A DNA stretch of 64,000 bases, taken from NCBI GenBank assembly GCA_039930045.1, contig JBDSQB010000009.1, positions 1 through 64,000 of the forward strand. The letters run 5' to 3'. Source of the DNA: Chthoniobacterales bacterium. Lineage in GTDB: Bacteria; Verrucomicrobiota; Verrucomicrobiia; Chthoniobacterales; DASVRZ01. Below, piece after piece: positions 40,735 to 61,565 of the stretch (its first letter is position 1; the number at the start of each line of letters is the position of its first letter). Below the pieces are notes generated by a model that was not told the DNA's origin, did not search any database, and was given only the letters and a program-made list of their open reading frames with translations. Position numbers and translations under genes: made by a program.

Positions 40735-41169
40735 TCATCTTTTTCGTTTCCACTCTTCAAATCTCCGGCTGACGACTGCTGCAATCTTGTCGTAATTCTG
40801 CCATGTGTCCTCGACGTGATACATGCTGGGCAAGTCTCCGACAAGAGCAGCCTCGTAGTCCTCGAAATAAAGTCCGCCCTGTCCCTCTGTGCCATCGTAG
40901 TAAAATTTGGCGAACGCATTTCCCTCGTCGCTCAAGTCCTCGTCCCAGAACTTCTCGTCGCACTCTTTGGACAAGAACTGCCGTCCAGTCATCTGGCGAG
41001 CACGCACGGCGGCGAGAGATGCGGGTGACTCCTGTCGGTGGAACTCTCCCTCCAAGCCATTCGTAATGGCCCATGCGAGAAACATGCCGATATGCGTGCC
41101 GCCGTTCTCAGGAGGCAAGCCCTCTGGATAATCTCCTCCATAATGCCAATCAGCGCGGTCGTATGCCAT
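40735..41169 (-). CDS. Soluble protein of unknown function, probable integron cassette gene
   Basis: This 144-residue acidic, Trp/Tyr-rich protein (ADWHYGGDYPEGLPPENGGTHIGMFLAWAI, then FWDEDLSDEGNAFAKFYYD and YHVEDTWQNYDKIAAVVSRRFEEWKRKR) resembles small hypothetical proteins often carried in mobile cassettes. I cannot name a family. The stop is one base from the attC site. The start lies 13 bases after a GTTAGGC core (41183-41189), so the gene is neatly packed between two recombination points. Confidence 0.75.
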   Translation of the reverse strand: MAYDRADWHYGGDYPEGLPPENGGTHIGMFLAWAITNGLEGEFHRQESPASLAAVRARQMTGRQFLSKECDEKFWDEDLSDEGNAFAKFYYDGTEGQGGLYFEDYEAALVGDLPSMYHVEDTWQNYDKIAAVVSRRFEEWKRKR

Positions 41170-41189: not shown

Positions 41190-41568
41190 ATATTGTAGGC
41201 GAAAGAGGTGCGTCCATTTTGAAAAACGCTGGAGAGAAACGGCATGGGGTTCAAGGTGCTCCAGCAAAGCAGGGAATGGCAAGTGCGGAACTCAGGCTCC
41301 AGCGGCATCGCTGACACCTACCGTCGAAAAAAAAATCACACCCCTCGAAAATAATTCGCCGGAACGCTTGACGAGATTCAACGGAATCTTTAGCCAGTTC
41401 CATCGTCGGGCGGTTTTCTTATGAAACTCGGGAACATTTCGGCAGTCACGGGATTGGACGACGCATCGGTGGTCGATGCGTCGGGCGGATGCACCCCGGA
41501 CGGTGATTTCATTGCAACTCGCCTCTTCCCAGGCACTTGCGCAAAATTGGTCATCCGAACGCTCATCG
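41190..41568. other. Gap upstream of the cassettes, no gene seen
   Basis: An integron integrase gene would be expected here or just beyond, divergent from the cassettes. None is visible on either strand. Open frames in this part are extensions of frames kept open by the adjacent 21-bp array. Confidence 0.55.
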
Positions 41569-41783
41569 TCGGTTTGGGGTCTGTAAACGTCGGTTTGCGC
41601 CGCATCAACGTCGGTTTCCACCCGGTGATCGTCGGTTGGAGGGTGTTCAGCGTCGGCATGCGGTCGGTGATCGTCGGTTCGCGCCGGATCACTGTCGGTT
41701 TGCGCCAGATCAATGTCGGATCGTGGGTGGTCAACGTCGGAGCGCCCGCGTTCAGCGTCGGCGCGCGCTTCCGAAAGGTCGCC
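41569..41783. repeat. 21-bp tandem array A (ten units)
   Basis: GTCGG recurs at 41569, 41590, 41611, 41632, 41653, 41674, 41695, 41716, 41737 and 41758, exactly 21 bases apart, with a near-copy GTCGC at 41779. A typical unit is GTCGGTTTGCGCCAGATCAAT; bases between the cores vary. Because 21 is a multiple of three, all frames stay open, giving heptad peptides (for example a repeating KPTLMRR pattern on the minus strand). No frame has a convincing start signal. The array lies 175 bp before the start of the broken gene at 41959. Confidence 0.95.
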
Positions 41784-41958: not shown

Positions 41959-42909
41959 ATGGAATACCATCAAGCCATTCAAAATCGCACGCAGCAAACC
42001 GTCGCCGTCATCAATGCCCATGTGCCCACGATGCAGGTCGGCCTCGTGACTGCGGCCGATCTCACCACGCAAAGCAATGCCCTCAACGGGCTGGCGCTCA
42101 CCCGCGACAGCCGTCTGGCGGATTACGACGGGGCCGTGAATGCCGAGGCGGCGGGGTTTAACCTCCTGCGCAAGCTCAGTCTCGCGCTCCCACAGTCGGC
42201 CACCGGCGAACTCGACGAAGAGGTGCCCGCCGAGGCGAAACTCCTCAACCTCCTCGATGCCGTCTATTCCATCAATCCCAACACCACCGAGGCCGCCACG
42301 CAACGCGCGCAGAAAACCAAGGCGGCGCTGCTCGAGATCGATCCTTATCTGACCGGCTTGGTGCCGCCGCGCAACGCCATTACCAGCGGCGGACGCGGCC
42401 TGCCCGAGCTCACCGCTGCCCTCGATGCCCAGCCCGACCTGGAGCAAAACGTGGAAACCGAGGGCGCGTAAGTCACGAAAGCGCGCGGCGACCTGCGCCT
42501 GGCCGCGCGGGCACTCGACCGGCTGAACAAGCGTTTCTACAGCAAACTCGTTGCCGAGGCGCGCGACAACGAGGCCTTGGCGGCGGCTCTTTCGCAAATC
42601 CAGACCGACGATACCAACCAGCCCGCCACGCTCGGCATCCGCAAGCTCCTCCAAGGCGGCGCGAATGGCCTGCAAGTGCTGGTGAGCTACGACAACGCCA
42701 GCTTCGATGCCGACCTTACGAACACCCTCGAGTGGTTGGTGGAGGGAGCCGGGGCCGAGTTTGGCAACAATGTGGTGGCCGACCCGAGCGGCAACGCCCT
42801 GGGGCCCTTTGCCGTGGGTGCGGTGGTAAAATTGCGCACCCGAACGAAGAACGCCAACGGTACCACCACCGGCAGCGTCCGCACGCTGACGTTGCTCGCG
42901 CCGGTGTAG
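41959..42909 (+). pseudogene. Gene of unknown function split by an in-frame TAA
   Basis: One frame runs 316 codons from ATG at 41959 (MEYHQAIQNRTQQTVAVINAH) to TAG at 42907-42909, broken only by TAA at codon 171 (42469-42471). The frame is otherwise intact on both sides, with the same codon use (VTKARGDLRLAARALDRLNKRFYSKL follows at once). The N-terminal part is helical. The end (GAVVKLRTRTKNANGTTTGSVRTLTL) looks like a fibronectin-type strand. No signal peptide is present. This could be a recent nonsense mutation, readthrough, or a sequencing error (TAC to TAA would restore it). No family recognised. Confidence 0.75.
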
Positions 42910-60241: not shown

Positions 60242-60997
60242 TTACACTTGTGTCCCGCTAGTACTAGCACCCGGCGTATTTCCATCGGGGGTGTTTTTGT
60301 TTCTGGGTGGGAAGCTATCCACCAGGAAACGGCTGCGGGCGTTGACGGTTTCGGGCGCGATGGTTTGGCCGGGGCGGGGCAAGGGCCATTGCAGGCGGCA
60401 GGCGTTTTGCACGCGCAGGCTGCGGGCATAGACGGCGTTCGCGGCGTTGGTGACGGCGGCGGTGAATTTCGTGCCGTCGGCCAGGGCGGCTTCCTGCGCG
60501 AGGTCGGCCTCGGCCACGATCTCGATGGCGGCGATAAAATCGGTGGCGTCGCTCGCCATCCAGGCTTCCTCGGCGAGGGCGGTGGCGTATTTCACGCTGG
60601 CGGCATGGGTCTTGCGGGCGCGACCGACTTCGCCGCCTAGGGTGGAATCGGTCTCGCTCTGGCCGATTTGAAATTCCCCGCTGAGGACGACGTCCTGTCC
60701 CTTCAGCGCGAGGCTGGCACTGCGGCGGGCTCCGGAGGCGAGGCGGCGCATCTCATGGAGGGCGTCGTTTTGCGCCTGGGTCAGGGTGCCGCTGTCGCCG
60801 CCCTGGCCGGATTGTTTGACGATTTCCTGGTGCAAGGTTTCGCGGAGCGCCTCGAAGTCGGCGGCAGCGCTGGCTCCACCGAGACGCGGAAGGATGGCGG
60901 CGAACAGGGTGTCGGCGACAGCTTGCTGGAGTTTGCCCGACTCGGTGATGAGGACGGAAAGAGGGAAGTGGAATTGGCGTTTGGGTGTTTTGTCCAT
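60242..60997 (-). CDS. Cytoplasmic helical protein of unknown function, next to 21-bp array B
   Basis: This 251-residue protein (MDKTPKRQFHFPLSVLITESGKLQQAVADTLF...) is helical and Ala-rich in the middle (SVKYATALAEEAWMASDATDFIAAIEIVAEADLAQEAALADG). It ends in a Pro/Asn/Thr-rich tail. It has no signal peptide or recognised family. The start at 60997 was chosen because the longer frame to 61162 runs through a MITE-like palindrome. Upstream, beyond that element, lies 21-bp array B, the same layout as the broken gene at 41959 with array A. Confidence 0.7.
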   Translation of the reverse strand: MDKTPKRQFHFPLSVLITESGKLQQAVADTLFAAILPRLGGASAAADFEALRETLHQEIVKQSGQGGDSGTLTQAQNDALHEMRRLASGARRSASLALKGQDVVLSGEFQIGQSETDSTLGGEVGRARKTHAASVKYATALAEEAWMASDATDFIAAIEIVAEADLAQEAALADGTKFTAAVTNAANAVYARSLRVQNACRLQWPLPRPGQTIAPETVNARSRFLVDSFPPRNKNTPDGNTPGASTSGTQV

Positions 60998-61271: not shown

Positions 61272-61565
61272 CGATAAATGGACTACAATCGCCGATTTGT
61301 GGCTGCGCAAGCCCGATAAACGGCTGCGCATTTCCGATAATTGGCTGCGCACTGCCGATGAGCCTCTGCACAACGCCGACGAGCGGTTGCGGGAGTGCGA
61401 TGGAACTCAAATCACCTCCGACAAGCCTCTGCGGCTCTCCGACGAAGGGCTGCGCACGGGCGATGGCTCGTTGCGCGACGCCGATGAGGCGCTGCGAAAG
61501 GCCGATGAGTGGTTGCGCTACTGCGACGCGCTGCTGCGAAGTCGCGATTCAGAGTCGGATGCAAC
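61272..61565. repeat. 21-bp tandem array B (fourteen units)
   Basis: CGA (mostly CCGAT or CCGAC) recurs at 61272, 61293, 61314, 61335, 61356, 61377, 61398, 61419, 61440, 61461, 61482, 61503, 61524 and 61545, always 21 bases apart. A typical unit is CCGATAATTGGCTGCGCACTG. Read on the plus strand, one frame gives heptads such as DEWLRYC, with Asp, Leu and Arg kept through several synonymous codons, but there is no ATG and no ribosome site (only a TTG at 61297). Both a coding and a DNA-level role are open. Confidence 0.95.

Follow-up and report, generated by a model that had tools for sequence, protein, structure and literature searches.

Ten 21-bp units upstream of an orphan gene in a Chthoniobacterales bacterium: a candidate helically phased binding platform and its relatives in Verrucomicrobiota

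The genome of a Chthoniobacterales bacterium (Verrucomicrobiota; assembly GCA_039930045.1, contig JBDSQB010000009.1) contains a row of 21-bp units, here called array A, whose period can be read in two ways. Twenty-one base pairs make up two helical turns but also seven codons. Is array A a row of sites for a protein that binds DNA, or does it encode a heptad-repeat protein? We addressed this question in the stretch formed by the first 64,000 nucleotides of the contig (the window), in further parts of the same genome and in related genomes. The answer that we favour, tentatively and on sequence grounds, is that array A may be a non-coding row of ten double-stranded DNA sites two helical turns apart, acting as the cis partner of the orphan gene downstream of it.

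Array A and its linkage to orphan genes

The features on which the argument starts are the following.

41557..41562, plus strand: GAACGC, at the 5' edge of array A
41563..41772, plus strand: array A, ten 21-bp units, unit consensus TCAnCGTCGGtTtGCGc..G. in the orientation of the downstream gene
41959..42909, plus strand: gene of the orphan family MEY (helical bundle and FnIII domain), with an in-frame TAA at 42469-42471

An initial annotation of the window had reported ten copies of GTCGG at an exact 21-bp spacing. All ten were recovered, starting at 41568, 41589, 41610, 41631, 41652, 41673, 41694, 41715, 41736 and 41757; the ten-unit array is real, with its start having been noted 1 bp off. 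One further GTCGG lies out of phase at 41663. The pattern GTCGG-N16-GTCGG-N16-GTCGG has eight matches in the window, every one inside array A, and none in 100 dinucleotide shuffles; the chance expectation for such phased copies is none. The array was also detected by Tandem Repeats Finder (TRF), with periods 21, 42 and 84. As the unit consensus indicates, conservation extends somewhat beyond GTCGG: each unit combines a core of 8-10 bp with a variable part of 11-13 bp that is semi-conserved between units. The near-identical repeats and unique spacers of about repeat length that define clustered regularly interspaced short palindromic repeats (CRISPR) are absent, in agreement with what had been proposed at the outset.

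The end of array A is separated by about 190 bp from the ATG (41959) of the MEY gene. Given its in-frame TAA, the gene may be a paralogue in decay. Contig C12 carries an intact paralogue (315 aa), which likewise has an array upstream, with eleven units (GGAACGTC+13). The MEY family is patchily distributed in the class, with members in 10 of the 384 genomes compared. Nineteen non-redundant homologues whose 5' end is intact were found outside this genome. Of these, 16 (84%) are preceded, at a distance of up to about 700 bp, by an array with a score of 50 or more, the arrays at L034 and L043 being weak; the background is 29 array-linked genes among 1243 predicted ones (2.3%). The linkage tallies, here and below, were made by hand after the arrays had been seen, and p-values for them are therefore descriptive only. 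The initial annotation had also named an assembly artefact as a possible explanation; this is ruled out by the homologous arrays that occupy the corresponding position, ahead of homologous genes, in genomes assembled independently of this one.

The linkage extends beyond MEY, and the window itself provides a second case.

61292..61538, minus strand: array B, second 21-bp array of the window, about 12 units, gene-orientation unit ttGCGCAGCc.ctcaTCGG..
60242..60997, minus strand: gene of the orphan family MDK, downstream of array B, 251 aa, predicted with low confidence to be mainly helical

Arrays accompany 4 of the 8 MDK homologues outside this genome, and 4 of 5 members of another orphan family (FN3), which has an FnIII domain and was found at L110. 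Four of the genome's own paralogues were reached by protein search alone (C12, L158, L165 and L167), and all four have arrays. At least two unrelated orphan families share array linkage. The idea of a single protein superfamily behind all array-linked genes found no support with hhalign, the families being not detectably homologous.

A class of arrays with period 21

The genome was sampled as stretches totalling 864 kb, about a quarter of its length. A lag-based scan of 464 kb returned 10 arrays of period 21, and between 0 and 2 at each other period from 13 to 40. With gene prediction over the 864 kb, 14 intergenic tandem arrays had period 21 and one had period 14 (range 13-40), while the periods of genic tandem arrays were nearly all multiples of 3. 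The count of 14 is conservative, since array A itself was assigned to a spurious open reading frame by the gene caller, which was crude. Arrays of the class hold about 6 to 17 units and occur in this genome about once per 45 kb, which extrapolates to tens per genome; the density is one per 13 kb in G216/G386, which share an array and are probably one genome. Samples of 80 kb from G009 and from G363 contained no array, although the single FN3 homologue of G009 does have one. Of three other genomes compared for an array linked to hemL, one has an array, on the opposite side of the gene.

Departures from period 21 are few. Rare examples occur in G171, namely an array of 10 bp and one of 22 bp alternating as a 44-bp dimer; the 22-bp dimeric array (L170, 505-823) contains CTCGACCnCGAG palindromes and lies upstream of an FnIII orphan gene. 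The ends of contigs C14 and C17 both fall within a 21-bp array that is nearly perfect, with the unit TTCCCCCAACGGGCAACCGAC (L018 2700-2903 and L019 2780-2915), adjoining a gene for an ABC-transporter ATPase on C14 and one for an ABC-export permease on C17. These contig ends are probably one locus split by the repeat.

Within the units, conservation is concentrated in the core. A conserved 8-bp block exceeded a neutral duplication-and-mutation simulation in 21 of 35 arrays, the simulation being simple and its runs few for some arrays. The initial annotation had suggested looking in other verrucomicrobial genomes for arrays of 21-bp period with a CCGA core. Arrays of that period are indeed present there, but a universal CCGA core is not, nor do the arrays of this genome have one core in common; judged from the sequences, cores are specific to locus and gene family. 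Mean core similarity is z 2.52 among MEY arrays; when different arrays within this genome are compared it is 0.41, close to background. MEY-array cores almost always have the same orientation relative to the gene, and the more alike the proteins are, the more similar the cores (Mantel rho 0.57, p 0.004). Two solo arrays carry the core of a gene-linked one (L056 that of L158, L111 that of L110). In the orthologous arrays G345b (L044) and L077, both of nine units, the cores are 94% identical and the variable columns 55%, a comparison in which unit orthology is uncertain and unit turnover may contribute to the differences; the genes are 83% identical over their first 249 nt and the 3' flank 75%. 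C-to-G or G-to-C changes account for 30 of 53 differences in the variable columns and for 3 of 25 in the flank. In 17 of 53 arrays, array A not being among them, dyad symmetry significantly exceeded that of column-permuted versions (combined z 7.3 over the arrays), and the dyad arms did not covary (overall z -2.15). Alternation of AT-rich and GC-rich halves within units was weak.

A proposed one-face platform and the competing explanations

Period 21 in non-coding DNA would most simply mean two helical turns, which would place each core on the same face of the helix. A DNA-binding protein could then fill the cores cooperatively along that face, and once bound it might control the orphan locus or assemble a nucleoprotein complex there. 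The initial annotation had noted that the two-turn period suits a protein-binding platform, and the predominance of period 21 across the class, the conserved and often dyad cores and the gene-family linkage strengthen that suggestion. The conservation of cores, the dyads whose arms do not covary as in hairpins and the strong linkage to genes together point to a one-face platform, as do the family-specific, consistently oriented cores, the contrast between core and variable remainder, and the lack of coding or RNA-pairing signal. Array A itself has the attributes of a helically phased operator: a conserved core, one face and an integral number of turns.

Since cores differ between gene families, the candidate binder is probably family-specific. 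It may be the orphan protein itself, acting autogenously, which we regard as a minority possibility, or alternatively a co-inherited regulator. Similarly doubtful, though worth stating, is a broader proposal in which several unrelated orphan families across Verrucomicrobiota would each assemble on their own 21-bp-phased array, beside the gene and at solo copies elsewhere. If true, this two-part system would be a class of bacterial nucleoprotein locus without known counterpart. A phase-dependent binder, if it exists, would represent a new device for regulation or chromosome organisation, of a sort that has received little study in this phylum. The arrays offer a directly testable case of helical-phase selection on non-coding DNA, and their near-exclusive period, marking orphan-family genes, provides a way into proteins left without a name by Pfam, PHROGs and NCBIfam.

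Several observations weigh against the platform. The linked proteins contain no recognised DNA-binding domain: searches of Pfam, PHROGs and NCBIfam gave no confident match. The AlphaFold2 model of a MEY-family protein is helical in its N-terminal part and ends in a beta domain (pLDDT, the predicted local distance difference test, 89.5), for which Foldseek matched FnIII domains only; single-sequence prediction for MDK was poor (pLDDT 45.5). Simple co-inheritance would also yield the co-divergence of core and gene. About half of this genome's arrays have no adjoining orphan gene, some lying between convergent genes. Convergent, co-directional and divergent gaps hold arrays in about background proportions, so flanking-gene orientation shows no promoter bias.

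That last result would suit the best surviving alternative, that the arrays are minisatellites, neutral or nearly so, which arise through replication slippage, decay slowly and accumulate in long intergenic gaps. Slippage could also account for the nearly perfect array at the C14 and C17 contig ends, for units at lag 2 being more alike than neighbouring ones, as expected from duplication of pairs, and for the 14 of 35 arrays that did not exceed the neutral simulation. It gives no reason, however, for period 21 alone or for the linkage to orphan families. Most of the tested arrays keep their conserved block, both G345b/L077 orthologues keep nine units while their variable columns change, and the only array seen in G009 is the one at its FN3 homologue. 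We consider this explanation unlikely.

Slightly less probable again is that the array works as RNA, a transcribed leader or sponge whose repeated 21-nt sites bind protein or RNA and control the gene post-transcriptionally. The position of arrays ahead of start codons, with their orientation fixed, would fit such a role, as would the 5' edge conserved in the MEY family, where AACGC or a close variant closes the upstream flank of homologous arrays (C12, L070, G380, G216, L072, L077 and G345). However, most arrays fold no better than column-shuffled versions, adjacent units do not pair, Rfam returned no match, and the dyad arms, as stated, do not covary. Array A shows no palindromic hairpin with compensatory changes of the kind found in repetitive extragenic palindromes (REP), bacterial interspersed mosaic elements (BIME) or hairpin RNAs. 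The exact two-turn spacing would be left without a reason, and several arrays are located between convergent genes.

We give the same low standing to intrinsic DNA shape, in which phased curvature, or wrapping by nucleoid proteins or gyrase, would matter and the core sequence would matter little. The smallest integer equal to a whole number of 10.5-bp turns is 21, predicted 10.5-bp-phased curvature is 0.54 in the arrays versus 0.23 in other intergenic DNA, and the diversity of cores would be explained if any sequence could serve. Yet the high score follows from 21-bp repetition itself and is automatic for any such repeat: when column-permuted arrays serve as the baseline, the gain at 10.5 bp does not surpass that at 7 or 21 bp. 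A unit tuned specifically for 10.5-bp curvature was rejected on this ground, and family-specific cores are left unexplained.

Heptad-repeat coding, the other option raised in the initial annotation, is very improbable for array A and already refuted as a general account, even though three long open reading frames cross the array: none gives a meaningful match to any family, and no single open frame under purifying selection on amino acids was found (lowest ratio of non-synonymous to synonymous change between units, pN/pS, 0.91 over six frames; permutation p 0.97). Among 42 arrays one had a frame with p < 0.05, and that frame holds 14 stops; column entropy showed no consistent codon phase. All six frames contain stops in the homologous arrays G003, G020 and G296, and the frame in which the C12 core reads GGA-ACG-TC, open in C12 itself, is stopped in every G216 unit. 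By its sequence, array A is non-coding.

Related repeat systems and the surroundings of array A

Plasmid Rep/iteron and ParR/parC systems consist of direct repeats in tandem, each about two helical turns long, with a conserved core and specificity for the cognate locus, placed upstream of the gene. The 21-bp arrays resemble such iteron and operator arrays in repeat length, core, cognate specificity and upstream position. They differ in being chromosomal and, by extrapolation, present in tens per genome, and in that the linked proteins have no recognised DNA-binding domain. Array A shares with Rep/iteron origins the tandem repeats in helical phase; an adjacent cognate Rep gene is lacking, and neither a Rep nor a Par gene lies beside it.

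Among chromosomal repeats, the TAACTGA direct repeats of Beggiatoaceae, whose function is unknown, also form many intergenic sets, often upstream of start codons (PMC4679880). They consist of one fixed heptamer in 2-6 copies (PMC4679880), in contrast to the 21-bp units described here, in which only part of the unit is conserved and the core is family-specific. Non-coding prokaryotic satellites have been described as intergenic tandem arrays of short total length (PMC6749651), and intergenic tandem repeats have been noted in planctomycetes (PMC9426551); in the passages of these two accounts that were consulted, we met no fixed 21-bp non-coding class and no gene linkage. A full-text literature search found no description of 21-bp arrays in Verrucomicrobia, and the class seems to be undescribed; with subscription papers mostly outside that search, this is weak evidence of novelty.

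Array A lies between the MEY gene and a divergent neighbour.

40735-41169, minus strand: DUF7832 gene, its start about 390 bp from the beginning of array A

No sigma-70 promoter or terminator was found near the array. At three other loci in distantly related genomes (L026, L079 and L080), MEY orphan genes lie about 0.5-2 kb from a gene resembling that of the translation factor lepA (EF4).
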